Source: a virus
Length of the DNA stretch: 41,821 nucleotides
IMG/VR virus record: IMGVR_UViG_3300034190_000128
Coordinates: 1 to 41,821 of that record
Strand: one strand, 5' to 3'
This document shows positions 16,464 to 31,345 of the stretch, piece after piece (position 1 is the first letter of the stretch; the number at the start of each line of letters is the position of its first letter). A program made the position numbers and the translations under genes. The notes beneath the pieces were generated by a model. It saw only the letters and a list, made by a program, of their open reading frames with translations, was not told the DNA's origin and made no database searches.

Positions 16464-16478
16464 GTAGTGAGACACTAC
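16464..16478. repeat. 15-bp palindrome copy 1 (intergenic)
   Basis: GTAGTGAGACACTAC on the + strand. On the - strand it includes the TAG stop codon of the 16475-16762 gene and ends three bases before the ribosome binding site of the SNF2 gene. Confidence 0.9.
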
Positions 16479-16762
16479 CGTTTCTTCTTCGGGCTGCTCA
16501 TAGCCCCACCCGCTGCGCGGTTCTTTTTACGGCTTTGTACTTTTACACCGTCTTTATTTGTCCCGCCTTTACTTAGCGGTTTCTTGTGGGCAATGTCTTT
16601 GCCTTCTCGTTTGTCGGCTTTGCCATTCTTGTTGGCATCTTTGCCTGTCTTATCCATCTTGCGCCTAGCCTTCTGGCGCTCCATGCGGTCTTCGTGTTCG
16701 CCGCGTTTCTTCTGTTGCTCGTACTCTTTCTTATACGGGCGAGGTTTCTTTGTGTATGGCAT
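16475..16762 (-). CDS. Lys/Arg-rich small protein with HNH-like motif (95 aa)
   Basis: Very basic throughout. Residues about 56-85 (DIAHKKPLSKGG...SRKKNRAAGG) match the histidine-loop-asparagine pattern of short phage HNH-like proteins, but the second conserved His segment is not obvious, so catalysis is uncertain. It could instead be a nucleic-acid-binding protein. It overlaps the nuclease gene upstream by one base (TGATG), and its TAG stop lies inside the dispersed palindrome. Its place between a RecB-like nuclease and an SNF2 helicase suggests a DNA-processing role. Confidence 0.6.
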   Translation of the reverse strand: MPYTKKPRPYKKEYEQQKKRGEHEDRMERQKARRKMDKTGKDANKNGKADKREGKDIAHKKPLSKGGTNKDGVKVQSRKKNRAAGGAMSSPKKKR

Positions 16763-17436
16763 CAGTTTGCTCCGTTATGTGGGCATTCGGTTACTTGGCA
16801 GTGGCGTTTGCAAAGGCCCGATGGACGGGGATTCCATACATCTACCTCAAACGCTTTCTCCATCTTAGCATAGTTTGCTAACCATTTGCTCCAAAGAAGT
16901 TGCTGTAAGTCAATTTCGTATTCCGCTTTGACAAGGCTCTTAGCTACCACAAACAACAGACCTGCGTTTAGCTTTGTAACTTTCGGGTAGTGCTTAAAGA
17001 TTGTCAGCGCCATCAACTCAAGCTGCCCCTTGTCGGCATACTTGGCAGACCTGCCTGTCTTGTAGTCGATGATCCAACCTACACCTGTTTCCTCGTCGAT
17101 GATCGCAAGGTCAACGATACCACGGAACCATACATCTTTAGCAAAGAAGCTGCACGGTTCTAGGTCAGCGGTCAGACCTAGCTTCTGTTCGACAATCTTC
17201 TTACCCTTCTTGCGGTTCAGCGCATCCAGTGTCGGCTTGATGAAGTCAAACTTCTTAGGGATCGGCGTACCTTCACCGATGTAATCCTCACACGCCTTGT
17301 GAAAATCAGTACCGTAGCGCATGGCATCAGTCTCTTTAAACGGGTACTGCTTCAGCACCTTCTCGTGGTAGAACTGCTTGGGGCATTGCTCGAATGCTTT
17401 GATCCGGCTGAAGGACCATGGCGCTGCTTTACTCAT
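16762..17436 (-). CDS. RecB/Cas4-like PD-(D/E)XK exonuclease with probable Fe-S cluster (224 aa)
   Basis: Motifs of the RecB nuclease family are in order: GTDFHKACE (H46, E50), GIVDLAIID (D109), WIIDYKTG (D124, K126) and GQLELMAL (Q138). C18 near the N-terminus plus C209, C213 and C218 at the C-terminus are spaced like the four cysteines that hold a 4Fe-4S cluster in AddB/Cas4-type enzymes. It would degrade or resect DNA ends, giving recombination substrates or recycling host DNA. The start overlaps the polymerase stop as ATGA, so the two are coupled. Confidence in the nuclease fold is high; the Fe-S cluster is inferred. Confidence 0.85.
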   Translation of the reverse strand: MSKAAPWSFSRIKAFEQCPKQFYHEKVLKQYPFKETDAMRYGTDFHKACEDYIGEGTPIPKKFDFIKPTLDALNRKKGKKIVEQKLGLTADLEPCSFFAKDVWFRGIVDLAIIDEETGVGWIIDYKTGRSAKYADKGQLELMALTIFKHYPKVTKLNAGLLFVVAKSLVKAEYEIDLQQLLWSKWLANYAKMEKAFEVDVWNPRPSGLCKRHCQVTECPHNGAN

Positions 17437-19259
17437 TCACAATCTCCATATGATTTGCCCGTGCCGCTCTCGCAATCGACGGGTAGCCCCTCGGCCCAAT
17501 CAGGCGTCCAACGCATACAACTCTCCACGAACGCTTGTGCTTCAGCGACCTCGGCGTCAGGTACACAGCATACGATAGAGTCATGCACAGTCAACACGAC
17601 TTGATATTTCTTACTAATCTTTAGCATTTGTTCGCCTATAATGCACCTCGCTATTGCTTGGCACACGTTCTCTATCACCTTACCACCGTATATTCTGGTA
17701 CGCCCTCTACGAGTTTTATAGCTGTACTCCAGACCTTTTTCGGTCTGCTCTCCGTACAACTGATCGTAGAAAATACTCAGGCCGCTCGGCACAATCAGTG
17801 CTTGGTTGGCAGCGTCTACTTTAATGATACCCTTCCGCCCAAACGTAACCGCGCGGTTATTGGCAAGCTGCTGCACCATGTAGTTCGCATCGCGCCACCC
17901 CTTGCTGATCTTGTAGTTTGCATCGCGGTAGATGTTTATGATCCGCCGGGCTTCGTCAGGCGCTACCTCATACCCAAACGTCTTTAGCTGCACGCCAAAC
18001 TTCTCGGCACCCATACCGTACCCTGCGCCAAGGATCGTAGTCTTCCCGACGAACCGCTGATTTTTTGTAACGTCCTCTTCTTGGCAACCGTAGATACGCG
18101 CCGCCATCTTTATGTAAACATCTTCCCCTCTGGCAAACGCAGAGGTCAGATCATCTTGCCCTGTGAACCACGCCAAGACCCTCGCTTCGATCTGGGAACT
18201 ATCGGCTTCGACAATGGTGTGTCCTTCGGGAGCAATGATCGCCCTCTTTAACTTCTTACCGTTCATGCCACGGCTCGGTAGGTTTTGTAGGTTGATCTTA
18301 TCGGCACCGCCCCAACGACCAGTGTGCGCTGCGTAGTATCTAACGGGTACTGGCAGTAGGCCACGTTTAGATATGCCTATAAACCTCTCTGTGCGTGTCT
18401 CCTCTAAGGTACTTTTGCTACCCAGACGTGCCGCCACCAAAGATTGTACCCGATCATCCTCGTGTTCTTGCAGTGCCTTGAAGTCCTCGTCCGACTTTGC
18501 AAATGCGTAAGTCTCTTTGCCTGTCGCAGGGCTGATCTTCATAGGCGGAATTACGCCTAGACCCCGCAGCATGTCTGCAAACTTCGGGTTGGACATCAGG
18601 TCTTTCTTGTCCTCTATCCCTGCGTCTACCAACAACTTGTCCTTGCGGTCACGAGTATCCTCAAGGTGCTGCTCTAACAATCCGAGGTCTAGATCAAGCA
18701 CAGGATCAATAAACATCCGCAGGGTCAAATCAATTATCTTTAACTCTTGGCGGGGAAACTTAGCCCCCATCATCTTAAACAACTTGTAGGTCAACTCTAC
18801 ATCGTTCTTGGCATACTCGCCGTACCGAGCCGCCTCTTCTGCGGTGAAATCGGCACGGTGTTTACCCTTGGCATTGTGTACTTCGTGACCTTTGACGCCC
18901 ACGCCGTACCGTTCTGCTGTAGCTTTGAGCGACACACTTGTCTCCACGCCGTGCAGCGCACGAGCCATGCACATAGTATCGAACCAAACCTTGGGCTTAA
19001 CTCCGTAGCGCCAGCTAAGTATAGCGCCATCAAACATCGTATTGTGACATAAGATGGCGCTATTAGAGAAGTCTATGTGTGATAGAAGACGCTCTATCAA
19101 CGCCGGATCATTAACATACTTAGTGGCCTTATCGTTTTTCTTGATCGCAAGGCCGATTACTTCAAAGCGTGGATCACGCACATACTCTTCGGTTGTGATC
19201 TTAGACAACGAGTACTCTTGGTCATAGTACGTCTCAAAATCTAGCGTATATACATCCAT
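17433..19259 (-). CDS. Family A DNA polymerase with 3'-5' exonuclease domain (608 aa)
   Basis: The N-terminal proofreading domain has DFET (D7, E9), HNTMFD (D77) and YAKND (Y149, D153). The polymerase domain has motif A EADSSQIEA (D353), O-helix motif B R402-K406-L410-Y414-G415, and motif C HDS (H559, D560, S561). There is no 5'-3' exonuclease domain, as in T7-like phages. The O-helix position equivalent to E. coli Pol I Phe762 is Leu410; viral ecology links Leu at this site to slower or temperate lifestyles. Motif C has Ser where E. coli has Glu, a variant seen in some phage enzymes. It is coupled to genes on both sides by short overlaps (ATGA, TAATG). Confidence 0.95.
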   Translation of the reverse strand: MDVYTLDFETYYDQEYSLSKITTEEYVRDPRFEVIGLAIKKNDKATKYVNDPALIERLLSHIDFSNSAILCHNTMFDGAILSWRYGVKPKVWFDTMCMARALHGVETSVSLKATAERYGVGVKGHEVHNAKGKHRADFTAEEAARYGEYAKNDVELTYKLFKMMGAKFPRQELKIIDLTLRMFIDPVLDLDLGLLEQHLEDTRDRKDKLLVDAGIEDKKDLMSNPKFADMLRGLGVIPPMKISPATGKETYAFAKSDEDFKALQEHEDDRVQSLVAARLGSKSTLEETRTERFIGISKRGLLPVPVRYYAAHTGRWGGADKINLQNLPSRGMNGKKLKRAIIAPEGHTIVEADSSQIEARVLAWFTGQDDLTSAFARGEDVYIKMAARIYGCQEEDVTKNQRFVGKTTILGAGYGMGAEKFGVQLKTFGYEVAPDEARRIINIYRDANYKISKGWRDANYMVQQLANNRAVTFGRKGIIKVDAANQALIVPSGLSIFYDQLYGEQTEKGLEYSYKTRRGRTRIYGGKVIENVCQAIARCIIGEQMLKISKKYQVVLTVHDSIVCCVPDAEVAEAQAFVESCMRWTPDWAEGLPVDCESGTGKSYGDCE

Positions 19260-19699
19260 TAGCCTTTACCCACTATCTCGCCGCCACATGCCATATACCC
19301 ACAGGCATCTACCCAGTTGTCCATGTGTGTAGGGTTAGAATGTATGCGAGCGATTTTGAGTAACGCCATCATAGCTGCAACATCTTTTGTCTTTATGAAA
19401 TCAATCAATCCAAGATGTGCGTTCCAGTATAGGGCGATACGCTGAAAATTATCTTCCATGTCGCCATGATCTGATGCACGGTCTTTTGTGACGTACTCCT
19501 TTGCAGTGTCCAGCACTTGGCCACGCGTCACCTTCTTCGCTTCCTTCTCGAACACTTCTTTTGGTGTGCCGATCTTACTCATCAGCGCGTGAACGTAGTT
19601 GTACGACGATTTAGTGGCCTTAGCGATTTCGCTCGTGGTGGCCTGTGGGTATCTGATCTTATACGCCCAGATTTTATCCGCTTTACTCTTCTTAGCCAT
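19259..19699 (-). CDS. HTH plus DUF6378-like protein (146 aa)
   Basis: Residues about 1-45 (KIRYPQATTSEIAKATKSSYNYVHALMSKI) form a helix-turn-helix. Residues about 60-140 contain DRASDHGDMEDNFQRIALYWNAHLG-type text, then MMALLKIAR and DNWVDACGYMACGGE, the pattern of the all-helical phage domain DUF6378, recognised from memory. That fold is related in general look to MazG-like all-alpha NTP pyrophosphatases, but no activity should be assumed. It overlaps the polymerase start as TAATG. Its own ATG follows GGAGAATAGC, which contains the previous gene's TAG stop. Confidence 0.65.
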   Translation of the reverse strand: MAKKSKADKIWAYKIRYPQATTSEIAKATKSSYNYVHALMSKIGTPKEVFEKEAKKVTRGQVLDTAKEYVTKDRASDHGDMEDNFQRIALYWNAHLGLIDFIKTKDVAAMMALLKIARIHSNPTHMDNWVDACGYMACGGEIVGKG

Positions 19700-19700
19700 G

Positions 19701-20204
19701 CTATTCTCCTACTGCTTTATTTTTATCATCGCGCAGCGTATGCACAATGTCTTCCAACGGGGTCATGTCTAACCCAATATGCTCCGCGCAACCACGGAAC
19801 CGTTCAAGCCATGCGGCTAGGCTAGTACCTGCTTGCCTACGCAACTCTGCCTGTGAGTTGGCATCAGTTGGGTCAAACGGTTCGTACCCGCCACCCTCTC
19901 TGCGTTTGGACACAGGAGATATATACGCAGGATACTCCGTCACTTTGATAGCGACCACAGAACTATCTACGTCTTCCGCTTTGGCAACAATCCGTAATCC
20001 AGACGCCATCTGACGCGCCATTTGTATGCGGTGCTGCCGTGCTGCTTCTGCATCATCCATACCGTAGAAGGCAGGGTATGCTTCATGTTCTGGTTGTGTC
20101 GCCAACCAATCAACAAAGTCCGCTGGCACAAACATGTTTGCACCTGTATTTTGCAGGTAATCATCTATGATACGCTGCTTGGTCTTCTTATTAAAACTAG
20201 ACAT
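19701..20204 (-). CDS. Phage protein of unknown function (167 aa)
   Basis: Begins MSSFNKKTKQRIIDDYLQ; the ATG at 20204 follows a good GGAGG. The frame stays open about 320 bases further upstream, but only through the pentamer-periodic tract, whose translation is Arg/Gly-rich nonsense, so the longer version is rejected. The mature sequence is mixed alpha/beta with VPADFVDWLATQPEHEAY and a C-terminal helix RRQAGTSLAAWLERFRG. No family is recognised. It is followed by the DUF6378-like and polymerase genes in the same operon. A palindrome copy (20237-20251) lies in its leader. Confidence 0.6.
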   Translation of the reverse strand: MSSFNKKTKQRIIDDYLQNTGANMFVPADFVDWLATQPEHEAYPAFYGMDDAEAARQHRIQMARQMASGLRIVAKAEDVDSSVVAIKVTEYPAYISPVSKRREGGGYEPFDPTDANSQAELRRQAGTSLAAWLERFRGCAEHIGLDMTPLEDIVHTLRDDKNKAVGE

Positions 20205-20236
20205 ATACTGTCCTCCAAAAAGTTTCTTATGTTTGT

Positions 20237-20251
20237 GTAGTGGGCCACTAC
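20237..20251. repeat. 15-bp palindrome copy 2 (leader)
   Basis: GTAGTGGGCCACTAC; symmetry extends one base each side (T...A). It lies about 20 nt upstream of the GGAGG of the 20204 gene on the - strand. Confidence 0.85.
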
Positions 20252-20280
20252 AGCCCACCACTTGTTTATTAGCTTGACCG

Positions 20281-20820
20281 CCAGAACTGACCGCGCCTCT
20301 CCGAACCATGCCCCGCCTCGACCGCCTAACCCCGCTCCGCCTTAACAGACCAAACCTGAACCGCCTAGACAGACCGCAACTTTCCATACCGTACCCCGCC
20401 TTGACCGCCTCGCCCTGCCTTGACTGACCATACCGAACCTGAACCGCCTCGACCGCCTCGCCCAATCTTGCCTCTCCTCTCCACGACCGCCTTGCCCTGC
20501 CTTGACTGACCATACCATACCTCACAATACCAAGCCTTCCTTATCAGGCCGTAACTCACCAGAACCGCCATGCCACGCCGAACCGTGCCGGACCTCGCCG
20601 TACCCAACCTAAACCGCCCAGCCACACCATACCGCGCCAAAACAAACCGCGCCGAACCGCACCGCACCTAGACCGCCTTGCCAGAACTGATCGCGCCTCG
20701 CCATATCTCTCCTAGCCCCGCCTCGACCGCCGTGCCACGCCAAAACCTACGCCGCCTTGCCTGTCCTATCCATGACCGCCTTTCCTCGCCTAACCTCGCC
20801 CTGCCGCACCGTACCCTGAC
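20281..20820. repeat. ~540-bp pentamer-periodic degenerate repeat tract
   Basis: On the + strand the tract is C-rich and reads as strings of CCNNN five-base units, such as ccgcg-cctct-ccgaa-ccatg-ccccg and ccgaa-ccgca-ccgca. The phase shifts occasionally. Longer blocks recur, for example GCCTTGACTGACCATACC at about 20417 and 20499. Reading frames through it give Arg/Gly/Trp/Tyr-rich text in more than one frame and have no ribosome binding site. I see no gene. It lies inside the leftward operon between the 255-residue protein gene and the 20204 gene. Confidence 0.75.
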
Positions 20821-20843
20821 CGTCTTACCTTGTCCGTGAATTA

Positions 20844-20861
20844 GGGCGGCGTTAACCGCCC
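20844..20861 (-). other. Intercistronic GC hairpin (GGGCGG family)
   Basis: GGGCGG and CCGCCC pair around the 6-nt loop CGTTAA, 7 bases beyond the stop of the gene ending at 20869. No U-tract follows on the - strand. Similar hairpins occur at 22913-22930 and 30642-30663, each shortly after a - strand gene end, suggesting an RNA-stability or processing element. Confidence 0.55.
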
Positions 20862-20868
20862 CTCTTCT

Positions 20869-21636
20869 TTAGGCTGCTCTGCGCAACCGCTCTTCTTGAA
20901 TGAACTGCATCAACTCTCGTGTCTGATCGTCAGCGCACTCTGGATGTTCCATAGCCAACTCTTGAACCTCACGCGCTTCCTGCGTGATGTCATCCCAGAT
21001 TTCTTGCTGATCTCCCATGTCCTCAGAACTTGCTACAGAGAAAGTGCCGTATGAACCGCGACCCTTCTCCTGTCTGAAGTCACCGATACCGACAATCGTA
21101 CCAGCGTTCTGTAACAGGGACACAATAGAGAACGCACTCAGAGTTGGCGTCACGAACTTTATATCCACCTCTGCACACCAGTTGGGTAAGTACGCACGGG
21201 TACGCACATCAGGTGTCTTGTTCATATCCGCAGACCGAACGATATCCATCTTCAAGTAAGGCTTACCCCAGATTTGGATTTGGCTCTCCGGTAAGAAGAT
21301 TAACCGCTGAACACTTGTTTTCTTGATGCCTTCTGTCTCAAGCGCAGCGGTAGCCATCGCGCCCTTTACACCCGCAGCAGGGAAGCACAGATGTGTATCA
21401 CCTGTAGACTTCTTGTACACACTATCCCGAAACTCCTGCTCGGGGTTGTGCTTTATGTTCTTCTTCTCAGCCGCAGTTTTCTTGCCGCCGCCGACTAACA
21501 GGTCACGCCACGCCTTTGCGCCCATGCTGTTAAAGTACATCGGGGTTTGCCCGATCATCCGCAACTTGATACGTCCTTGCTTTAACGCATGGATTTCCAT
21601 TGTAGCTGGTGCGGTTGGTTTCTTTAATATAGCCAT
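20869..21636 (-). CDS. Conserved-looking phage protein, possible RAMP-like fold (255 aa)
   Basis: Starts MAILKKPTAPATMEIHALKQG after GGAGAATGAC; the in-frame ATG 12 bases earlier is part of the leader. Features include QTPMYFNSMGAKAWRDLL, a FPAAGVKGAMATAAL block and a Gly-rich GIGDFRQEKGRGSYGTF motif at about residues 190-206. The FPAAGVKGAM block and the late Gly-rich loop recall RAMP/Cas7-like ferredoxin folds, but this is weak pattern resemblance. The C-terminal 40 residues are acidic and helical. The gene is large for this part of the operon and sits just upstream of the pentamer tract. No catalytic residues are evident. Confidence 0.65.
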   Translation of the reverse strand: MAILKKPTAPATMEIHALKQGRIKLRMIGQTPMYFNSMGAKAWRDLLVGGGKKTAAEKKNIKHNPEQEFRDSVYKKSTGDTHLCFPAAGVKGAMATAALETEGIKKTSVQRLIFLPESQIQIWGKPYLKMDIVRSADMNKTPDVRTRAYLPNWCAEVDIKFVTPTLSAFSIVSLLQNAGTIVGIGDFRQEKGRGSYGTFSVASSEDMGDQQEIWDDITQEAREVQELAMEHPECADDQTRELMQFIQEERLRRAA

Positions 21637-21647
21637 GTCATTCTCCA

Positions 21648-21836
21648 TTATATATTGACACCTTGTTTCCGCAGGTTTGCGGTAAACTCTCGTAGTTCCC
21701 CCCTCGCGCGTTGCAGGTCTTGCTGCACGTTGGGGTGTTGCTCGGCGCGATTAACCTCACGCTCGTATTTATTAACTTCATTTCTTAGGAACCTCAGTTC
21801 CGCTTGCTGCTGCAAGTTCAACGCTTCGTCACCCAT
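21648..21836 (-). CDS. Small coiled-coil protein (62 aa)
   Basis: Almost entirely charged helix (LQQQAELRFLRNEVNKYER...), consistent with a short coiled coil. The ATG overlaps the previous gene's stop by 8 bases (ATGGGTGA) and follows AAGGG. Its TAA stop lies directly before the GGAGAATGAC leader of the 255-residue protein gene. It could be a small adaptor or inhibitor; function unknown. Confidence 0.6.
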   Translation of the reverse strand: MGDEALNLQQQAELRFLRNEVNKYEREVNRAEQHPNVQQDLQRARGELREFTANLRKQGVNI

Positions 21837-22056
21837 TGCCCAACCCTTTCGGCCTTGTTTTTGGACGTATAGATGAACTCGCTTTATCTGATTGAGTGCA
21901 GTTCATGTGAACATCTTTTGGGTTGTCGTAGATAGCGAGAAGCGCATCAGACCTGAGAACCTGTTCACATTTAGCGTAGTTCTCGAACCAAATCTCACCC
22001 CGCATATCCATGTCTTGCAGCGGGTAATATATTAGCAAGGCAGTAAAAAATTCCAT
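21829..22056 (-). CDS. Small protein with hydrophobic N-terminus (75 aa)
   Basis: Begins MEFFTALLIYYPLQDMDMRGEI, a short hydrophobic stretch that could be a weak signal or membrane anchor, followed by a polar region with two Cys. The ATG at 22056 overlaps the upstream TAA stop as TAATG and has GGAG 8 nt before it. A GTG two codons earlier is possible but less likely. Function unknown; it belongs to the small-gene cluster at 21.6-22.3 kb. Confidence 0.55.
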   Translation of the reverse strand: MEFFTALLIYYPLQDMDMRGEIWFENYAKCEQVLRSDALLAIYDNPKDVHMNCTQSDKASSSIRPKTRPKGLGNG

Positions 22057-22588: not shown

Positions 22589-22590
22589 AG

Positions 22591-22930: not shown

Positions 22931-22934
22931 CATG

Positions 22935-22949
22935 GTAGTGAGCCACTAC
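22935..22949. repeat. 15-bp palindrome copy 3 (intergenic)
   Basis: GTAGTGAGCCACTAC, directly abutting the stop codon (22950-22952) of the 87-residue gene. Confidence 0.9.
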
Positions 22950-24116: not shown

Positions 24117-24131
24117 GTAGTGTGTCACTAC
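24117..24131. repeat. 15-bp palindrome copy 4 (intergenic)
   Basis: GTAGTGTGTCACTAC. On the - strand it contains the TAG stop of the 331-residue gene and lies six bases before the GGAG of the 296-residue gene. Confidence 0.9.
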
Positions 24132-25123
24132 TGTTTCATAAAGCCCGCGTTGACGTTGAAGAACGAGTTGAACCTCGCCCTAACACGCCGCAGATCATCT
24201 TCTGTTTGTACATCTTTTACCGCATACGATGGGTTCCAACCGTATCCATCGGTAGCTTGGGACGCAAACTGAACCCATAGGTGCAACCGCATAGGGTGAT
24301 CCTCGTCTACTAAAATCACACGCGACCACTCAGGGTTCCATGGCTGATAGCCTGTTGTTGGGTAGAAGTGCTTACGCAGTTCATCCATACGTTCCATGAT
24401 GTATTGTTGCTCCAAAGGCAGCAGGGGGGACATAGTCATACCCCACTCAAAGAACTTCTTGAGTGCGCCCCTGTATTTAGCCTTTAGTTCTTTGTTCACT
24501 TGTGGGCCTTTAGGTACTTTCTTCCCAGTTGTTGGGTTATGTATCCAATTACCTCCACCCCTAGTAAACACCAACGCCGCATTGTCATCTTTACGCTGCG
24601 ACCATGAATGCCTACCCGGATAGTGAATGCTATCTTCATAGTATTTTTGTTCGTCGGCGGTTACAGTTTTGCCCTTGGCTAGGAATATCGCATCCTCTCT
24701 TAACCCACTCGTAGAGATATATTGACGTGCGTTACCTTGTATAAAATGTAAGCCACGCGGTGTATGCCTATCTATAAAACTGTAACGTGAAGGTTCGCAT
24801 CCGCTGTCTGGCCCTGTCATATTCATAATCCTGACGCTCTCGACACCATCCTTATGTTTACGCCACACGATAGGTGCGTAGTACTCCATCTTACCATCCC
24901 TCCCAAACCAACGGGGGAACATAGGATCACCACGGTGATACCCATCACTCAGTGCGTAGCAGTTTCGGCTTAACTTAACGATGCGTTCGTGCTTACGGTT
25001 ACGGTCTCCGATAGGTCTGATGTCGTCCTCACGTGTGTGAAGTTTAGATACAAGGGGTTTGATGCTTTCGTAGTGAGCCACTACCGATGCAAATGAGGTA
25101 TAGTTTGTACTGTATAGTGCCAT
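24128..25123 (-). CDS. Phage protein of unknown function with an internal palindrome (331 aa)
   Basis: Begins MALYSTNYTSFASVVAHYES; codons 14-18 (VVAHY) are exactly one copy of the 15-bp palindrome, in frame. The protein is rich in aromatic and charged residues (MFPRWFGRDGKMEYYAPIVWR, FEWGMTMSPLLPLEQQYIM in parts), suggesting a globular fold; no known family is recognised. The stop TAG is supplied by a second palindrome copy. The leader TCAAGGGATATGTAAA also occurs in near-identical form before the previous gene (25526). Confidence 0.6.
   Translation of the reverse strand: MALYSTNYTSFASVVAHYESIKPLVSKLHTREDDIRPIGDRNRKHERIVKLSRNCYALSDGYHRGDPMFPRWFGRDGKMEYYAPIVWRKHKDGVESVRIMNMTGPDSGCEPSRYSFIDRHTPRGLHFIQGNARQYISTSGLREDAIFLAKGKTVTADEQKYYEDSIHYPGRHSWSQRKDDNAALVFTRGGGNWIHNPTTGKKVPKGPQVNKELKAKYRGALKKFFEWGMTMSPLLPLEQQYIMERMDELRKHFYPTTGYQPWNPEWSRVILVDEDHPMRLHLWVQFASQATDGYGWNPSYAVKDVQTEDDLRRVRARFNSFFNVNAGFMKQ
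25070..25084. repeat. 15-bp palindrome copy 5 (inside gene)
   Basis: GTAGTGAGCCACTAC; read on the - strand as GTA GTG GCT CAC TAC, coding VVAHY at residues 14-18 of the 331-residue protein. Confidence 0.9.
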
Positions 25124-25124
25124 T

Positions 25125-25526: not shown

Positions 25527-25527
25527 A

Positions 25528-26766
25528 TTACATATCCCTTGATTTGATGTGTACTGTCTTGCCAACGTCTGCGGTCTTGCCGCTGTCCATCACGCACCAC
25601 AACACAGGCATAGTCCACTGACCCCAGCCACCAAACAGGTGACCATCTGTCAGCACGATACATGCTTGCGCGTTGATGTTGTTGTCCCGAATGTAATCGG
25701 TAACGCAATCGACATCAGTGCCGCCGCCACCCGCTGGCTTGGTTGATTGTACGAGAGTATCGAGATCACTAGCGTCATACGTCTCGTCACGACATATCCT
25801 CGTGTCCCAATACATCAGGCGTACTTTCTCAGGGTGTACAGTATCGCATATCGATTTGACCTCGGACAGAAACGCAGACAACTCACGCTGCCCAATAGAC
25901 CCAGATGTGTCGATAGCCACGATCAACTCACCGACCTGTTCGGTGATACCGCTTGGCATATACATACCACTCGACAAGTATCTGCGGTTGGGTCTGCGGT
26001 AAGTAGAGTAGTCGCTACCCGTGCAAGTATTCTGCACAAACTCACGCAGTGCTTCACGCCAATCGACCTGTGGCTGTAACAGTTCGGCTAGGTCACGATC
26101 ACCACCGCTGCCCATCTTACCTGCAACCAACGCACCTTGGCGGATAGCCTCGTCAATCTCGCGTGCAAGATCGCGCTGCTCGTCGGCTGTTAGTTCTTGC
26201 GCACCATCCCAATCATGCTCGTCGAATGGCTGCTGTCCATTAGGTAGTGAGCCACTACCACCGCCATCGTCGCCATCATCGTTACCTTGTCCGCCACCGT
26301 CGCCATCTTGGTCATCACGCAGAGAGTTGTAGACCTGTGCGCTGTCCATGCCAGCATACTTGGGGTCATAGCATCCGTTCTCCAACACGCCTGTCATAGT
26401 TGCGAAGCCATCTTTGTTGTCGTCAACGATCTTGAGGTTGATAACGTAGTCGTTCGCCATGTTCGCGAGATGTGGGTCTTGCTCGTATAGGTGACGCCAC
26501 GTTGTCAGGTGCTTGAACAGTTTGTGATACACCTCATGCAGTACCAAGAACCTAAGCTCTGCATCGTTAAGCTGCTTTACAAACTCACGTCCATACATCT
26601 CGTCACGCCCATTGGTACATGCGGTTGGTACGGAGTCATCGTCCACTACATTACGGTCACCGATCATCAGCACCCCTGCGAGTGCCGTGTACTTCGGGTT
26701 CCCCATGATAGAGACAACGGCTTTGGTTAGCCGCTGCTCTTCTGTTAGGTTGTTCAACATTAGCAT
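25528..26766 (-). CDS. DUF2201-like metallopeptidase fused to VWA-like domain (412 aa)
   Basis: Residues about 10-150 look like the DUF2201 putative metallopeptidase, with FLVLHEVYHKLFKH (H77, E78, H81) and NMANDYVINLKI. An Asp/Gly linker (151-175) contains an in-frame palindrome copy. Residues about 275-400 form a VWA-like domain with MIDAS residues DTSGSIG (D286, S288, S290), T350-D351 and TDG (D374). Such proteins pair with MoxR-type AAA+ ATPases, which remodel metal-dependent partners; the MoxR gene is two genes upstream. ATG 26766 follows GGAGAAAACAAA. The target in this phage is unknown. Confidence 0.85.
   Translation of the reverse strand: MLMLNNLTEEQRLTKAVVSIMGNPKYTALAGVLMIGDRNVVDDDSVPTACTNGRDEMYGREFVKQLNDAELRFLVLHEVYHKLFKHLTTWRHLYEQDPHLANMANDYVINLKIVDDNKDGFATMTGVLENGCYDPKYAGMDSAQVYNSLRDDQDGDGGGQGNDDGDDGGGSGSLPNGQQPFDEHDWDGAQELTADEQRDLAREIDEAIRQGALVAGKMGSGGDRDLAELLQPQVDWREALREFVQNTCTGSDYSTYRRPNRRYLSSGMYMPSGITEQVGELIVAIDTSGSIGQRELSAFLSEVKSICDTVHPEKVRLMYWDTRICRDETYDASDLDTLVQSTKPAGGGGTDVDCVTDYIRDNNINAQACIVLTDGHLFGGWGQWTMPVLWCVMDSGKTADVGKTVHIKSRDM
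26244..26258. repeat. 15-bp palindrome copy 6 (inside gene)
   Basis: GTAGTGAGCCACTAC in the flexible Asp/Gly-rich linker between the metallopeptidase and VWA domains. It codes within GSGSLP (residues 170-175), a different phase from copy 5. Confidence 0.9.
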
Positions 26767-26927
26767 TTTGTTTTCTCCTCATACGATGAGACAAATACAG
26801 CGTTCAGTGCGCCAGCTTGTGACATGAACTTTGCCTTGGCCTCGACCATTGCTTTTGCTAGGCTGTCGGCCTCGACACGTTCGACACGCGAGACCAGCCC
26901 TTCCACAGTTACATAGAATGTACGCAT
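26760..26927 (-). CDS. Small protein between MoxR and VWA genes (55 aa)
   Basis: Encodes MRTFYVTVEGLVSRVERVEA followed by a helical ADSLAKAMVEAKAKFMSQAG segment and an end ...SSYEEKTKC. ATG overlaps the MoxR stop as TAATG, and the stop overlaps the start of the VWA gene, so translation is coupled on both sides. The pattern (beta strand, then Ala-rich helices) resembles small phage proteins of unknown role. Its position suggests it belongs to the MoxR/VWA module. Confidence 0.6.
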   Translation of the reverse strand: MRTFYVTVEGLVSRVERVEADSLAKAMVEAKAKFMSQAGALNAVFVSSYEEKTKC

Positions 26928-28021
26928 TACTTTTTATCCGCTGTGTACAGGTGGTTGTTTTGCATAGCCCACGCTGTGAACTTCTTGTTGGTCATCACCA
27001 TCGCTTGCTTGGAATACTTCGGTGCGCGTACACCATTAGCAAACATAGCTTGTGCCTCGGTGTCGAGACGCGGCAAGTAATCCATCCAAGCGTCGAGCCA
27101 GTCTTTCTCCAACGCAGCCAGAGTTCTATACACAACCATACATACGGCTGCTGCGGAGCTGGGTACTTTGGCGTTCTTCGGATCATCTTTGATCGACTGT
27201 AAGCTGGGTAGCTGATCGGATAGTGACACAAACGCCATCAAGTCCATCGCACCACGATCACCGATTGTACCCATGAGCGCAGCGGTTAGCGTCACATCGT
27301 CAATCAAGTGCCGCTGCTTGAGTATGTCAGATGCAGAGTGCAGAGACCGAGGCGTCACGAAGGCGGCACGCTGCTGTTTGGGGTGAAAGATGTATGGGTT
27401 CTCGTCGGGGTCTTTCACATCCTCAAACGATGCCATCAGGTGCGGGTTGTCTTTGATCCAGCCCAACATGCTGTGATCCCAACCATCGTTGATACCAAAC
27501 TCAATCAAGGCCATGTGGTCGGTTTTCTTGATCTGCACCACAGTCATACGGTTCCGTGCGTGTGGTGGTAAGATGTCACCAACTCCCTCGCTGCCTTTGT
27601 TGGTCGTGGCAAAGACAATGCTGTCGGGGTGTAGTGAGTAACTACCAACTTTACGCTCCAACATCAGACGCAGCATGGCGTTCTTCACAGCGGGGTTCGC
27701 CTTGCCATACTCGTCAAGCATCAGGATGATCGGCCCTTCGATATGCAGACCGAGTTCTTCGTGTGGGATCATACGCACACAGCCATCCGTTTCGATAGAC
27801 TGCATGGACGGGATCATGATGTCGCCAAGGTCTTTGGTCGTGCCATCAAAGTATATGGGCCGATGCGTGGGGAGTTGTTCTGCCAAGGTGGTGAGCATCG
27901 ACGACTTGCCGTTACCCATGTCACCCTGTGCTAGGACGGTACGTTTGCTACCCACCGCCTTGATAAGATCAACGCATTGGTCGAGGTTCAGTGCATACAT
28001 TGCTTGTGCTTGATTAGTCAT
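26927..28021 (-). CDS. MoxR-like AAA+ ATPase (364 aa)
   Basis: Walker A GDMGNGKSS (K39, S40), Walker B IILMLDEYGKA (D103, E104), sensor-1 FATTN (N141) and a candidate arginine finger in PPHARNRM identify an AAA+ ATPase. The ERKVG...DSIVFATTN region matches the pre-sensor hairpin typical of MoxR/CobS-type ATPases. It is paired with a VWA protein and a DUF3150-like protein, the classic MoxR-VWA arrangement. The ATG follows GGAGAACAAC; the in-frame ATG 12 bases earlier is leader. An imperfect palindrome copy falls at the hairpin turn (residues 126-131). Confidence 0.88.
   Translation of the reverse strand: MTNQAQAMYALNLDQCVDLIKAVGSKRTVLAQGDMGNGKSSMLTTLAEQLPTHRPIYFDGTTKDLGDIMIPSMQSIETDGCVRMIPHEELGLHIEGPIILMLDEYGKANPAVKNAMLRLMLERKVGSYSLHPDSIVFATTNKGSEGVGDILPPHARNRMTVVQIKKTDHMALIEFGINDGWDHSMLGWIKDNPHLMASFEDVKDPDENPYIFHPKQQRAAFVTPRSLHSASDILKQRHLIDDVTLTAALMGTIGDRGAMDLMAFVSLSDQLPSLQSIKDDPKNAKVPSSAAAVCMVVYRTLAALEKDWLDAWMDYLPRLDTEAQAMFANGVRAPKYSKQAMVMTNKKFTAWAMQNNHLYTADKK
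27631..27645. repeat. 15-bp palindrome copy 7, imperfect (inside gene)
   Basis: GTAGTGAGTAACTAC; one arm base differs from the consensus. It codes within GSYSLH (residues 126-131) of the MoxR-like ATPase. Confidence 0.75.
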
Positions 28022-28037
28022 GTTGTTCTCCAATTGT

Positions 28038-28052
28038 GTAGTGAGTCACTAC
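28038..28052. repeat. 15-bp palindrome copy 8 (intergenic)
   Basis: GTAGTGAGTCACTAC, just after the stop of the 49-residue gene and six bases before the GGAGAACAAC leader of the MoxR gene. Confidence 0.9.
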
Positions 28053-28053
28053 T

Positions 28054-28203
28054 TTATTTTTTAATTTTAGCCGTTGCGTTCAAGTACTCGTTGCACAGAC
28101 GTTGGATTGCCTGTTCAGCGGTTACACTAAAGTTAAGTTCATCGCTCATAGCTTCTGCCACAAGATCGATAGGTGTCGGTTCTTTTTTCATTAGGCGTTT
28201 CAT
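28054..28203 (-). CDS. Small protein in the MoxR/VWA module (49 aa)
   Basis: Encodes MKRLMKKEPTPIDLVAEAMS, then DELNFSVTAEQAIQRLCNEY and LNATAKIKK. It has a good ribosome binding site (AGGAGAACAGT) and a helical, charged composition. It lies between the DUF3150-like and MoxR genes and ends two bases before a palindrome copy. No family is recognised; it may be an accessory subunit. Confidence 0.6.
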   Translation of the reverse strand: MKRLMKKEPTPIDLVAEAMSDELNFSVTAEQAIQRLCNEYLNATAKIKK

Positions 28204-28213
28204 ACTGTTCTCC

Positions 28214-29158
28214 TTATATATCCAAACTTGGTAGTGCTTTGATCGCGGCGTCTACTGCCGCTTTGGTTTCGGCGCGGAAGGTATCGTCTTCACGCAAGGC
28301 GTCAGGGGTCACACCAGACATTGCCTCTTCGAGACTGTTTGCCATGGCGTTCATCTGGCTTGAGTTCGTCACGTTACACACACGAAGAAGTTCTATCATG
28401 TCGGTGACGTTGCCAACCAAGCTGTCGCGGAACACCTTCTTGTCTTCCTTGCTGCCGTAGTCGAGGCGCTCACTCATGCTGGTCAGTGCCTTGTGCAAAC
28501 GTGTCCACACGTCATTCATCGCGGTGTTGTACTGCTTGGCGTAAAACTCGCTGTACTTCTCCTGCACTTCGGCTAGGGCATCGTTGCCAATGTCCACACG
28601 GAAGTCACCTGCATCAGGTAGTGGCATATAGTTCATACCGAACCCAAACTTGCGCTGTAGTGTTTCGACTGTCGGATAGTCATCGCGTGAAAACAAGTCG
28701 CCTAGCTTGAGTTGTACATCCACAACCTCATCGTTGTAGCTGCCGAGGAAGTTGGACACGAGGCGTTCAAACTCATTCTGCATCTCGGACATAGCTTGGC
28801 TGTACTTGAAGTATTGCGCGGTGGGTAACAGACGCAGACCGGAGTTCGACCACGGCATTGTCATGTTCGCGTGCATGGCACGAGTTGCTGTCACATGTGT
28901 CTGTATAGCTTTGAGTGTGTCGGAGTTAGCGAGTAGCTTTTTGTTCACGCTTGCTACACCAGTATCGGCATGGTTTTGCGTGGTGACATCGGCAGAGGCA
29001 CGCTTGTCTTTCTTGCGTCCAACCCAGTTAGAGATGTTGACTTCGACGAGCATCGCAGAGGATGCAAGTGTCGGAGCGGTGGATTGAGGCACGCTTGGCG
29101 TGACTGTTTCGGTTTGTGGTAGTGTGTCACTACCTTTTACTTCGATCATCATGTTCAT
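28214..29158 (-). CDS. DUF3150-like protein, partner of the MoxR/VWA module (314 aa)
   Basis: After a disordered N-terminus (Thr/Pro/Ser-rich, residues 8-35) comes LVEVNISNWVGRKKDKRASADVT, resembling the start of the DUF3150 family (isxWxGrkk pattern), then a mainly helical body. DUF3150 genes often sit beside CobS/MoxR ATPases and VWA proteins on plasmids and in phages, as here. The exact function is unknown. ATG at 29158 follows AGGAGAAGAACT and overlaps the upstream stop. A palindrome copy lies in the disordered N-terminus (residues 9-14, GSDTLP). Confidence 0.65.
   Translation of the reverse strand: MNMMIEVKGSDTLPQTETVTPSVPQSTAPTLASSAMLVEVNISNWVGRKKDKRASADVTTQNHADTGVASVNKKLLANSDTLKAIQTHVTATRAMHANMTMPWSNSGLRLLPTAQYFKYSQAMSEMQNEFERLVSNFLGSYNDEVVDVQLKLGDLFSRDDYPTVETLQRKFGFGMNYMPLPDAGDFRVDIGNDALAEVQEKYSEFYAKQYNTAMNDVWTRLHKALTSMSERLDYGSKEDKKVFRDSLVGNVTDMIELLRVCNVTNSSQMNAMANSLEEAMSGVTPDALREDDTFRAETKAAVDAAIKALPSLDI
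29119..29133. repeat. 15-bp palindrome copy 9 (inside gene)
   Basis: GTAGTGTGTCACTAC; codes within GSDTLP at residues 9-14 of the DUF3150-like protein, in the same codon phase as copies 6 and 7. Confidence 0.9.
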
Positions 29159-29352
29159 AGTTCTTCTCCTGTGTGCCGCATATAGCGGGGTTTGGGTTGT
29201 TCAACTTTTGCGAGTTCGTCCTTACTCATCGGTTTGTGAACGTACTCAATCGTGTCAAACTCCTGCCACGCTTGACACACGACACAATCGGCATCGTGGT
29301 CAGGGCAGCGTTCGCCATAGTAATCTTTAATGGCCTCTTCGATCATCTTCAT
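29155..29352 (-). CDS. Small Cys/His-containing protein (65 aa)
   Basis: Begins MKMIEEAIKDYYGERCPDHD, with ADCVVCQAW following; Cys and His spacing (C, H, C, C) suggests a zinc knuckle. The upstream stop TGA is part of TGAGGGG, which serves as ribosome binding site 6 nt before this ATG; an ATG at 29358 is also in frame but too close to it. It overlaps the DUF3150-like start by four bases. Function unknown. Confidence 0.55.
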   Translation of the reverse strand: MKMIEEAIKDYYGERCPDHDADCVVCQAWQEFDTIEYVHKPMSKDELAKVEQPKPRYMRHTGEEL

Positions 29353-29362
29353 CTTCATCCCC

Positions 29363-29575
29363 TCACAGCGCGTACTTGTTGAGACCCTTGAGGTCGGCTT
29401 TGTTCGTGACGAGTGTTGCGCCTTGCTTGTGCGCGATAGGTGCAACGCACCAGCTTGATCGGATTTGTTGGGCGCGGAAGTCGCCGCAGTCTAGGCAGAA
29501 GTTGTAGCCTAGTTGACGACGACGATGGTCGTACTGTTCGCCGCATGAACGGCAGGTGACGGTCTTTAGTGCCAT
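29363..29575 (-). CDS. Zinc-ribbon protein, first gene of the leftward operon (70 aa)
   Basis: Two CxxC pairs, CRSC (residues 8-11) and CLDC (residues 27-30), form a treble-clef or zinc-ribbon, followed by a basic tail. ATG 29575 follows GGAGAACAAGACT; the in-frame ATG 15 bases earlier is leader. It is the first gene downstream of the promoter at 29672-29700. A palindrome copy and a GCGCAG/CTGCGC hairpin (29628-29640) lie in its leader. It could be a nucleic-acid-binding early protein. Confidence 0.65.
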   Translation of the reverse strand: MALKTVTCRSCGEQYDHRRRQLGYNFCLDCGDFRAQQIRSSWCVAPIAHKQGATLVTNKADLKGLNKYAL

Positions 29576-29598
29576 AGTCTTGTTCTCCATTGTTTGAG

Positions 29599-29613
29599 TA
29601 GTGAGTCACTACA
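29599..29613. repeat. 15-bp palindrome copy 10 (leader)
   Basis: GTAGTGAGTCACTAC in the 5' leader of the leftward operon, nine bases before the GGAG of the first gene. Confidence 0.9.
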
Positions 29614-29671
29614 ATTTTGGTTGTTGGCGCAGGCTGCGCGGTACGTTGTTCATTTCGTGACAACATATACT

Positions 29672-29700
29672 AATGTACCACGTATAGTGACAAATGTCAA
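29672..29700 (-). promoter_or_regulatory. Main leftward early promoter
   Basis: Consensus -35 TTGACA (29695-29700) and -10 TACATT (29672-29677), 17 bp apart on the - strand, about 95 bases before the first gene. GTGACAA occurs at 29658 and again at 29688 inside the promoter, a possible operator. TTTTCTGACATATA lies just upstream at 29702-29715. This is probably the main start of the 19-kb leftward operon. Confidence 0.65.
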
Positions 29701-29719
29701 GTTTTCTGACATATAAGAT

Positions 29720-30059
29720 AATGTTCCATCTTATGGTATCGTATGGTGATATATAGCTACAAATATATGGTTAAGTGTTTGTAATATAAGGAATGTTCCA
29801 TTTGTTCCATAATGTTCCACGCTAAGTGCTTGTAATGCAAGGAATGTTCCAATGTTCCGTTGGTATCGGGGAAACACCGGCAATTTTTGGATTTGTGGTG
29901 GGACATGGAATCGCGTGGGAAGGGGGGTCTCTCACGTAGTCAGACTTTTAAACTATGGAACATTAGGAACATTAGGAACATTATAAATAAAACAGTTACT
30001 TGCAAATGGCCTTTTTGGAACTTCTTGCGGGACATTAGGAACATTATTGTGGAACATTA
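29720..30059. other. Candidate replication origin: opposed arrays of AATGTTCCA / TGGAACATT repeats
   Basis: Left arm, AATGTTCCA-type on the + strand: 29720, 29792, 29801 (variant TTTGTTCCA), 29811, 29843 and 29851. Right arm, reversed GGAACATTA: tandem at 29957, 29966 and 29975, then 30029 (variant), 30038 and 30051. Two longer direct repeats (AAGTGYTTGTAATRYAAGG, 29773 and 29824) precede left-arm sites. AT-rich DNA lies at 29730-29790. The arrangement of iteron-like repeats around a ~100-bp centre, next to divergent units, resembles iteron-type origins. No gene is supported here; the NVPNVPNVP frame is a by-product of the repeat. Confidence 0.6.
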
Positions 30060-30129
30060 TAAAAATAAGAGTTCTATCACTGCATACATGCTGTGACGCA
30101 ATGCTGCTCTGATAACTGGCTTCAATCGG

Positions 30130-30144
30130 GTAGTGACTCACTAC
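30130..30144. repeat. 15-bp palindrome copy 11
   Basis: GTAGTGACTCACTAC, with the centre ACT on the + strand. Copies just left of the origin have ACT on the - strand. Confidence 0.9.
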
Positions 30145-30251
30145 ACTACGCGCGGTGTGACAAGATTCTCCGTACCACCACACACGACAACATCTCGCTA
30201 CGTGTCGCCGGCCTGACGCGCGAAGCTGCTTGGAGAACTGGCATCATTTGG

Positions 30252-30266
30252 GTAGTGACTCACTAC
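30252..30266. repeat. 15-bp palindrome copy 12
   Basis: GTAGTGACTCACTAC, at the end of the second long direct repeat. Confidence 0.9.
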
Positions 30267-30378
30267 TTCTTTCTGTGTGGGTGGTTTGGTGGCCGCGCCG
30301 AATCCGATGCGTGACGCGCGAAGCTGCTTCGAGAACTGGCTTCAATCGGGTAGTGAGATTCGTACAGAAATGTAGACA

Positions 30379-30411
30379 CAAAAAAACCCCGCAACCAAAA
30401 GGCTGCGGGGT
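30379..30411 (-). terminator. Intrinsic terminator of the 30.4-31.2 kb unit
   Basis: ACCCCGCA pairs with TGCGGGGT (30386-30393, 30404-30411), extended by CC/GG after one mismatch around an AAAA loop. On the - strand a run of seven T follows. It closes the two-gene - strand unit and insulates the origin region. Confidence 0.85.
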
Positions 30412-30417
30412 CAGGTC

Positions 30418-30612
30418 TTAGCGTTGGATCAAAGTGAAAGCGGCTTGGCGTGGGAATGTGCTGCCATGCTCCGCCATGATGCGGCGTTTGTTTAAGATGT
30501 ATTCAATATCGTCTGGCGACATGTTGTCTCGCATGTATCCAATCATGGCGTCAAACTTATCGTCTGGCCATTTGGCGATAACGTCGAGGGCGGCTTGGAA
30601 GATATGTTGCAT
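30418..30612 (-). CDS. Small helical protein (64 aa)
   Basis: Begins MQHIFQAALDVIAKWPDDKF; all-helical, with MIGYMRDNMSPDDIEYILNK in the middle. The ATG at 30612 follows GAAAGGACACACA; the frame extends upstream only through this leader and the GC hairpin. It is the second gene of the right-hand - strand unit, directly before the terminator. Function unknown. Confidence 0.6.
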   Translation of the reverse strand: MQHIFQAALDVIAKWPDDKFDAMIGYMRDNMSPDDIEYILNKRRIMAEHGSTFPRQAAFTLIQR

Positions 30613-30641
30613 TGTGTGTCCTTTCAAAGACGTGATGGTTA

Positions 30642-30663
30642 GGGGCGGCGTGATTGCCGCCCC
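30642..30663 (-). other. Intercistronic GC hairpin (GGGGCGGC family)
   Basis: GGGGCGGC pairs perfectly with GCCGCCCC (8 bp) around GTGATT, between the two genes of the right-hand unit. No U-tract follows, so it is probably a processing or stability element. Confidence 0.6.
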
Positions 30664-30670
30664 GTGGTGG

Positions 30671-31213
30671 TTAGCCGATTGTCTTGGCAAGGTTCGCCAA
30701 TCCGGTGGTCAGATCATCCAGATCGATTGAGCAATCAAACTCATCTGCTTTCTGGATGCGCTTGATTGCATCATTGAGCAATTCGCGGACCTTGGTTTCA
30801 ACCGACACTGTGCGAGTGTCTGGGCCAGTCTTGCCCGATGCGATCTCCGCGTCGATATCCTCACGATGCTTCAATTGCTTCTTGATGTCGGCAATCACCG
30901 CGTTCGCTTGGCGCATCCAATATGCCCGCGTCTGGCCGTTTACAGTCTTATCGCCGCAAACCTTGGCGCTCATTTCCATCATGGCCTGAGCCTGTTTCGG
31001 GAAACCTGAGTTGATGGTATTTTTCAGGAAAGCCCAGCTCTCGTCGCTGGCCGCGCTGCCATCTGACTTGGGGCTGATACAATGTGCCGATGTCCAGCCT
31101 GCGCTGCGTAAGATGTCGGTGCGCTTGATGCGGGCGATGTCAGTCTTGACTGTTGTCGCTGCCCAATCGCGAACGGCGGTTTCGATTTCAGTGTTGATTG
31201 TGACGTGTGTCAT
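30671..31213 (-). CDS. Helical protein of unknown function (180 aa)
   Basis: Begins MTHVTINTEIETAVRDWAAT. It is mostly helical, with basic stretches (TDIARIKRTDILRSAGWTS) that could contact DNA and a C-terminal acidic helix (FDCSIDLDDLTTGLANLA). No family is recognised. It is the first gene of a separate - strand unit with its own promoter, typical of an early regulator or host-takeover protein; that is inference. The ATG follows the 18-nt leader GTCTTTGAAAGGACACAC, shared with the next gene. Confidence 0.65.
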   Translation of the reverse strand: MTHVTINTEIETAVRDWAATTVKTDIARIKRTDILRSAGWTSAHCISPKSDGSAASDESWAFLKNTINSGFPKQAQAMMEMSAKVCGDKTVNGQTRAYWMRQANAVIADIKKQLKHREDIDAEIASGKTGPDTRTVSVETKVRELLNDAIKRIQKADEFDCSIDLDDLTTGLANLAKTIG

Positions 31214-31275
31214 AGTGTGTCCTTTCAAAGACATTAGGTTAATCAAGTCCCGGTGTTTGCCGTCTTGATGTAACC

Positions 31276-31304
31276 AGTATACATCTTTTGGTGTCTCTTG
31301 TCTC
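31276..31304 (-). promoter_or_regulatory. Promoter of the right-hand - strand unit
   Basis: -35 GAGACA (31299-31304) and -10 TATACT (31276-31281), 17 bp apart on the - strand, about 60 bases before the ATG at 31213. The region 31214-31652 has no supported gene. It also holds a palindrome copy, TTTTCTGACATATA (31347-31360), a C-rich tract (31365-31387) and a lone TATAAT on the + strand at 31415. Confidence 0.5.
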
Positions 31305-31330
31305 GTTATCAGCCGTCATATGACGCAATA

Positions 31331-31345
31331 GTAGTGACTCACTAC
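31331..31345. repeat. 15-bp palindrome copy 13
   Basis: GTAGTGACTCACTAC, upstream of the right-hand unit's promoter. It is preceded by TGACGCAATA, the same start as the long direct repeat at 30094, and followed by TTTTCTGACATATA. Confidence 0.9.

Follow-up and report, generated by a model that had tools for sequence, protein, structure and literature searches.

Dispersed palindromes in the early block of a phage genome as putative operators of one co-evolving phage-encoded regulator

Results

A palindrome dispersed over the early block

We analyzed a virus genome of 41,821 nucleotides (IMG/VR record IMGVR_UViG_3300034190_000128, positions 1 to 41,821; here called the window) with respect to a short dispersed palindrome, GTAGTGNNNCACTAC, and to the gene of its candidate cognate regulator, termed REG. 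The 41.8-kb record is classed as linear. According to the annotation of the window, the early block, in which the palindromic sites lie, is transcribed leftwards and encodes a primase-like protein, an SNF2 helicase, a PD-(D/E)XK exonuclease, DNA polymerase A, an Hjc-like nuclease, a DUF2201 protein, an ATPase, and a DUF3150 protein, and the terminase and portal genes are on the opposite strand. A pattern search of the window found twelve exact copies of the palindrome and one copy with an arm mismatch, all within 16.4-31.4 kb (Table 1). The initial annotation of this DNA had listed the same thirteen copies, had located them in the early region and not in the virion-gene blocks, and had expected far fewer than one copy by chance; we reproduced its list with a single coordinate shift (29599 to 29598), and 100 dinucleotide-preserving shuffles of the window gave a mean of 0.00 motif matches and a maximum of 0. 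A de novo palindrome search recovered 12 copies in the early block; in window positions 1-10200 and 31701-41821, it detected each palindrome at most once, and when the early block was resampled 20 times with a Markov model, no palindrome was ever repeated. The highest palindrome count in seven late pieces from relatives was 2.

Related phages carry the same or another palindrome

Two protein searches of IMG/VR yielded 160 relative loci; one contig may underlie several of them, and duplicates were removed only on identical protein or identical context. A near-identity search of phages with the window gave no match. Many relatives share the GTAGTGNNNCACTAC motif (272 distinct type-A site windows), and in more distant relatives the corresponding gene slots are occupied by another dispersed palindrome. 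We labeled the motif types by half-site and centre length: GTAGTG-3 (type A; the window and the relatives G001, G003, and G004), GTTAGTG-3 (type B; G007), GTAGTT-3 (type C; G002, site sequence GTAGTTNNNAACTAC), TTAGGGA-2 (type D; G006), TAGGGAA-1 (type E), TTCGGGCA-2 (type F), GTTGGTCA-2 (type G), and TAGGGA-1 (type H). In six relatives of 58-65 kb, whole or nearly so, the type motif is again limited to the early block. Stray matches of another type comprised one GTAGTT-type match in the late part of G004 (8723) and one match in the early block of G003; G002, itself of the GTAGTT type, also holds two GTAGTG-type matches. A further palindrome, TATAAC-4-GTTATA, is present in five copies in L230, a locus with a distant relative of the type-B regulators.

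The motif type tracks REG

The motif type tracks one gene, REG. Our collection comprised 185 regulator-bearing loci, 127 of them with at least 2 kb downstream; these 127 encode 78 distinct proteins. The main motif of the protein's own subfamily accompanies 72 of these 78 (A 25/25, B 30/35, C 5/6, D 7/7, E 1/1, F 3/3, G 1/1), a count that is partly circular because loci of known motif had served as seeds for the subfamily profiles. Six proteins deviate: those of three distant B relatives (TAGGGA-1), of L295 (TTAGGG-4), of L230 (TATAAC-4), and of L129, which has one A and one C copy. Recruitment by the protein alone gave 142 loci, of which 57 were removed because less than 2 kb of sequence followed downstream and 15 because they lacked a regulator open reading frame (ORF) of at least 100 amino acids. 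Of the remaining 70, 28 lie on sequence already in the earlier set, both type-G loci included, and 42 with 36 distinct proteins are new. All 42 new loci contain a palindrome in at least three copies, which is of the predicted type in 35 (25 B, 6 A, 3 D, 1 C); two loci have only the common core of A and B, and five, among distant B relatives, have other types.

On gene trees, the number of changes of motif label was at its minimum for REG in 13 of 13 comparisons; ten of the thirteen other gene trees need more changes and three tie. Against 7 changes for REG, the zinc-ribbon and DUF3150 genes need 11 each, the ATPase gene 12, and the DUF2201 gene and g24128 10 each. The Hjc-like gene (8) and g22950 (7) compare with 6 for REG, the polymerase with 6 to 5, the exonuclease with 5 to 4, and g30418 with 3 to 2. 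In a common set of 50 loci, REG needs 7 changes, the zinc-ribbon gene 11, the DUF3150 gene 12, and the ATPase gene 13.

The profile scores of the REG family cluster by motif type. The A and B regulators are homologous (99.8%), the A and C regulators very likely so (96.8%), and the profile of the type-D regulators finds type E. AlphaFold predicts a helical protein for REG (pLDDT 90.2, pTM 0.71); the corresponding model of a type-D regulator has a pLDDT of 47. The best hit of a sequence search of the PDB with REG was not convincing (E 0.79), and a distant relative of the type-B regulators matched the Arc-like repressors of PHROG 228 weakly (E 0.065). We found no relative of the type-A and type-B regulators in 50,697 phage records. 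A collection of bacterial and archaeal genomes gave 172 and 59 pattern matches, none of which was confirmed, so that neither a prophage form nor a host was found there.

A natural exchange of regulator and sites

The sister genomes G004 (type A) and G002 (type C) share 88-100% identity in most of their conserved early genes. Of the G004 genes that also occur in other relatives, REG alone gave no blast match in G002, where a different protein is encoded at this position. Ten of the eleven type-A sites of G004 align with G002, and eight of these ten are altered on both arms, seven to GTAGTT..AACTAC and one to GTAGTC..AACTAC. The changes are clearest at sites 33941, 38162, and 40364, where 35-38 of 40 flanking positions are identical on each side; at the coding site 38162, the motif change turned VVAHY into VVYNY. 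We propose that the sites of the early block may be rewritten when the regulator is replaced.

Sites recur in fixed slots at gene starts

Relative to conserved gene starts, the same slots are reused by sites of different types. The slot of the zinc-ribbon gene is occupied in 29/32 type-A, 5/5 C, 7/7 D, and 0/9 B contexts, with medians of -24 to -41 in seven types, and that at the ATPase start in 16/38 type-A, 20/30 B, and 7/7 D contexts. Similarly, we found sites in the slots of the SNF2 gene (19/20 type A, 2/2 B), the Hjc-like gene (32/33 type A, median -67), gene 23210-24100 (window site 24117; 8/14 type A), and REG itself (23/26 A, 27/29 B, 3/3 H; median -126 to -147). Two slots lie within the first codons, those of the DUF3150 gene (19/19 type A, +32) and of g24128 (32/36 type A, +46). 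The slot of site 16464 is occupied in G001, G003, G004, G006 (type D), and G007 (type B), and in G002 with a type-A motif. In the contexts of the relatives, no slot was found at the starts of g22950, the polymerase, the exonuclease, g16475, g14473, the HTH gene, g13363, and the primase. Within the window, seven of the 13 sites lie at most 60 nt from a start, compared to 2.4 expected (p 0.005; start list compiled by us from the window annotation). No promoter element or hexamer was found at a fixed distance from the sites in the 272 type-A windows. Apart from the REG-proximal site 1, most sites seem to be located either 20-70 nt ahead of a start codon or within the initial codons of a gene, with plausible promoters only upstream of them.

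Site 1 and the promoter-like elements of REG

Measured from the predicted REG start, site 1 is centred near -60 in 11, near -70 in 11, and near -80 in 2 of the 29 type-A rows, together 24 rows; of the other five, two have it at -40 and three lack the element. Type D shows two spacing classes 10 bp apart, with four rows each. Random triples of spacings were equally phased in 3% of trials, in a test on related rows with three spacing classes that excluded the two rows at -40 and the three without the element. These spacings are suggestive of helical phasing of site 1; on the late side, its spacing is less regular. With patterns chosen after viewing the rows, the TATA-like REG element was present in 24/28 A, 6/6 C, 6/40 B, and 1/9 D rows, the B and D values being no higher than in shuffles, and the G-rich element by site 1 in 28/28 A, 37/40 B, 6/6 C, 8/9 D, 3/4 H, and 0/1 F rows. 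A promoter scan gave 16 matches, the REG element among them, compared to 18.2 in shuffles; as there is no excess, the promoter assignments rest on conservation. The location of site 1 upstream of the REG promoter-like element makes autoregulation of REG probable.

Conservation of the sites is of a DNA type

The innermost pair of the motif types with centres of 1-2 nt, which the search patterns left free, is A..T in 20/20 type-F and 14/14 type-G sites; the same holds for 27/28 type-D sites and, for both inner pairs, for 13/13 type-E sites, the D-G sites deriving from few contigs. Pairs that flank a centre this short are unable to form in RNA and are nevertheless invariant, in keeping with a protein of two-fold symmetry bound to DNA. 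Among 80 one-mismatch variants of types A, B, C, D, F, and G, three give G-U and five give A-C; since 42 of the 252 possible substitutions would give G-U, there is no preference for this pair. Overall, site conservation fits DNA rather than RNA. Of the two options in the initial annotation, an RNA hairpin and a DNA site for a dimeric protein, the former fails both tests, and the latter is supported. The candidate binding protein, the link to gene starts, and the other motif types of relatives go beyond the initial annotation.

Further features of the early block

Table 1. Palindromic sites and other elements of the window
Feature	Position	Strand	Remarks
Palindromic site, exact	16464..16478		centre 21 nt before SNF2 helicase start; includes stop codon of gene 16475-16762
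Palindromic site, exact	20237..20251		~40 nt before likely ATG at 20204
Palindromic site, exact	22935..22949		67 nt ahead of Hjc-like nuclease gene
Palindromic site, exact	24117..24131		24 nt before gene 23210-24100; includes stop codon of gene 24128-25123
Palindromic site, exact	25070..25084		46 nt into gene 24128-25123; encodes VVAHY
Palindromic site, exact	26244..26258		within DUF2201 gene, Gly/Ser-rich part
Palindromic site, one mismatch	27631..27645		within ATPase gene
Palindromic site, exact	28038..28052		24 nt before ATPase start
Palindromic site, exact	29119..29133		32 nt into DUF3150 gene
Palindromic site, exact	29598..29612		30 nt before zinc-ribbon gene
Palindromic site, exact	30130..30144		intergenic, within ~110-bp repeat
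Palindromic site, exact	30252..30266		intergenic, within following copy of ~110-bp repeat
Site 1, palindromic, exact	31331..31345		upstream of REG promoter-like element, between it and divergent late promoter-like element
REG, candidate cognate regulator	30671..31213	-	180 aa; encoded first in early block; all-helical by prediction, without known domain
REG promoter-like element, GAGACA-17-TATACT	31276..31304	-	recurs in type-A and type-C relatives
Intrinsic-terminator-like hairpin, 12 pairs and T run	30385..30412	-	after REG transcription unit
Promoter-like element TTGACA-17-TACATT with TG	29672..29700	-	before main early operon; site 29598 in its leader
C-rich element (G-rich on minus strand)	31364..31388	+	adjoins site 1; in most relatives
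TATAAT with TG ahead	31415..31420	+	possible -10 of divergent late (terminase) promoter, judged from sequence

The G-rich element reads GGGGGGTNGGGGGTAGGTGGGG on the REG strand; it lies beside the divergent TATAAT, is conserved in the majority of rows for most motif types, and may be part of the late promoter. Intergenic sequence before the main early operon (29728-30060) contains numerous GGAACAT / ATGTTCC copies in direct and inverted orientation, which are possible iterons or a second operator family. A ~110-bp repeat (CTGGCTTCAATCGG...) is present three times in positions 30080-30365; two of its copies end in an exact palindrome and the third in a broken one (about 30350). Together with their flanks, eight palindromes score as terminator-like hairpins on the plus (antisense) strand (16464, 20240, 24117, 28038, 29118, 29598, 30250, and 31331).

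Three other genes were considered as source of a binding protein and rejected. The recognition helix of the excisionase-like HTH gene 14246-14476 is nearly equal in types A and C, and likewise in types B and D. The HTH of the HTH-DUF6378 gene 19259-19699 is nearly equal in A-type and G-type loci, and its product is 94% identical in G002 and G004. Gene 22259-22609 is present in 11 loci, all of type A, but was not found in the type-A genomes G001, G003, and G004. In 19259-19699 and its homologues, an HTH-like N-terminus is fused to DUF6378, and the HTH part varies between phages independently of motif type.

Discussion

We infer from these comparisons that REG binds the sites as a dimer, with a net effect of roadblock repression and autoregulation. 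That the palindromes are DNA operators of this one phage-encoded regulator, which would act in this manner and co-evolve with its sites, is in our judgment the probable explanation. REG would be made early and would occupy, as a dimer, a dozen operators at the starts of early genes and near its own promoter. Elongation roadblock would be the likeliest action given that most sites seemingly lie inside transcripts: a dimer on a leader or first-codon site would slow or stop RNA polymerase, and the early operon would be turned down once REG accumulates. Through site 1, REG would act on its own promoter, where activation is possible alongside the roadblock. Replacement of the regulator would be followed by rewriting of the operators across the early block, so that both would co-evolve. 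None of 14 records, some of which are fragments and none of which has a completeness estimate, matched the integrase and ParA families searched for (PF00589, PF00239, or PF13614), which makes early shut-off or superinfection exclusion likelier purposes than lysogeny.

Several observations weigh against this interpretation. Regarding the sites, four of the 13 (26244, 27631, 30130, and 30252) have no start within 300 nt, individual types leave some slots empty, as type B does with that of the zinc-ribbon gene, and site 1 has activator-like distances from the REG promoter-like element that fit activation as well as repression. On the gene trees, several margins amount to one change, g23210, g19259 (n=13), and g16475 (n=10) tie with REG, and SNF2, g14473, HTH17, and g13363 had too few rows for the test; g23210 is disfavoured despite its tie because an overlapping frame is 96% identical in G002 and G004. 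Between G002 and G004, further differences lie in the ATPase (65%), in a g30418-like gene (42%), and in three ORFs (71-80%); for two small ORFs of G004 (37644 and 44073), none of the compared relatives has a match. At five of the eight changed sites, the flanking sequence has diverged as well, down to 20/40, the changed site GTAGTC..AACTAC has lost its symmetry, and two of the ten aligned sites keep the old motif in tracts that are more than 99% identical. Finally, REG has no significant Pfam or PHROG match and no recognisable DNA-binding domain, resembles no solved fold convincingly (best Foldseek E 1.2, best VIA Z 4.7), and is not net basic (25 K+R, 25 D+E). The type-D regulators show weak homology to A or B (5% and 29%), and D, F, and G are tied to A mainly via position and a short shared signature.

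The same observations bear on the alternatives, the strongest of which retains REG as the binding protein. The sites might be REG operators from which REG mainly activates, contacting RNA polymerase from upstream (class I) sites and driving early or divergent late transcription. The recurrent spacings of site 1 in types A and D and their phasing speak for this view. However, most other sites lie 20-45 nt ahead of a start codon or inside a gene, with little space for a downstream promoter, the type-A windows show no hexamer at a fixed distance, the TATA-like element is no commoner in B and D rows than in shuffles, and spacing is less regular on the late side; we therefore regard a mainly activating REG as rather unlikely. 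Less likely still is binding by a host protein or another phage protein, with REG merely travelling with the motif. Association falls short of binding, three genes equal REG on the trees, and further genes distinguish G002 from G004. Nevertheless, the high identity of most early genes in these two phages suggests a similar host, yet their motifs differ; the recognition helix of the HTH protein 14246-14476 is nearly equal between A and C and between B and D, as is the HTH of gene 19259-19699 between A and G loci, and REG is the first gene and adjoins site 1.

Two further explanations dispense with a DNA-bound transcriptional regulator, and we consider both highly improbable. As RNA hairpins of mRNA leaders, the palindromes would be the target of a translational repressor; several indeed stand directly ahead of Shine-Dalgarno sequences on the sense strand, and the RNA could form a stem of 6 bp with a 3-nt loop. 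This reading is opposed by the invariant inner pairs, the variants without G-U preference, and the location of site 1 upstream of the REG promoter-like element. Dispersed palindromes are also known in partition, for example in phage N15, and the sites might serve partition, replication, or packaging in a parS-like or iteron-like manner, or act as weak antisense terminators, given that eight of the 24 terminator-like matches in 16000-32300, all on the plus strand, are palindromes with an A-rich flank. But the sites are tied to particular gene starts and lacking in late genes, no ParA relative (PF13614) appeared in the 14 records, and a terminator would not require a fixed sequence of 12 bases; we give this explanation marginally less weight than the RNA hairpin.

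If REG binds the sites, it would add a regulator family without a recognised domain, and nature would provide about eight matched protein-operator pairs (A-H) as a series, including close genomes that differ in the pair. It would thereby become possible to address an old question, namely how the specificity of a regulator changes when a dozen operators must follow. The system would then constitute a stoperator-like network in seemingly lytic phages, used for early shut-off or superinfection exclusion and not for lysogeny. For genome annotation, a simple rule would follow: where palindromes are dispersed over the early genes, the first early gene is the one indicated. A wider view, which we put forward tentatively and with clearly less confidence than the operator function itself, is that a widespread family of marine phages without a detected integrase might run an immunity-like early-gene network. 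Its DNA-binding family would have a new fold, its operator code, including the centre spacing, would have been rewritten at least seven times, and genomes such as G002 would be caught part-way, with new beside old sites.

Comparison with known systems

No paper on this palindromic element was among the literature matches listed. In the temperate Streptomyces phage phiC31, conserved inverted repeats are dispersed in the early region and bound by one phage repressor. The likeness to the window lies in the dispersal of inverted repeats in the early region.

The cluster A mycobacteriophages (L5, Bxb1, TipsytheTRex) possess one regulator with many dispersed sites in short intergenic spaces, including a site at the repressor gene for which autoregulation was proposed, and heteroimmune phages differ in motif and repressor together (PMC9283540, PMC6550527). 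Our sites resemble these stoperators in that many near-identical copies are dispersed in a single phage genome. However, cluster A sites are 13-bp, asymmetric, oriented with transcription, and genome-wide, whereas the sites described here are symmetric, 13-18 bp long, and found in the early block; the cluster A repressor is monomeric, with an N-terminal HTH and a Stoperator domain, and REG is predicted to be helical and has no significant Pfam match, which would still be compatible with such domains; and the cluster A phages are temperate, whereas no integrase was found in our 14 records. A further difference is that the motif changes found here include the centre spacing. Streptomyces phage R4 is likewise temperate, and its repressor is reported to act at many genomic sites (PMC10276819); the likeness is that of a repressor with many sites. 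The initial annotation knew of no described element that matches. This no longer holds for the architecture, which would work like the repressor-stoperator systems of L5 and R4, and remains valid for symmetry, protein, and life style; given symmetric sites in the early block and the lack of an integrase match in the 14 records, we do not class the system with the L5 and R4 stoperators.

In cluster K mycobacteriophages, start-associated sequences (SAS) are repeats tied to the starts of non-structural genes; they are 13-bp, non-palindromic, and typically 3-7 bp from the start codon, the passages available name no cognate protein, and the accompanying ESAS are 17-bp imperfect inverted repeats whose spacer varies (PMC3203893). 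Unlike the SAS so described, the sites reported here are palindromic and mostly lie 20-70 nt before starts or within genes.

A 38.8-kb stretch of Pseudomonas phage KPP25 contains no dispersed palindrome. The best match of the polymerase among the phage records searched (36% identity) was in the cultured Rhizobium phage RHph_TM3_14A (L304). Its first early protein of similar size, EVB41_028, has no homology to REG detectable with hhalign, and its annotation table lists no dispersed palindrome. We found that this phage has an 18-bp dispersed palindrome of its own, GTTACC-6-GGTAAC, with 12 exact and 19 one-mismatch copies in a 41.9-kb stretch; 14 of the 31 copies lie at most 80 nt from a start, a zone that makes up 25% of the stretch. 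Compared to the window, the spacer is 6 and sites also occur outside the early block. RHph_TM3_14A is a cultured analogue of the system described here.

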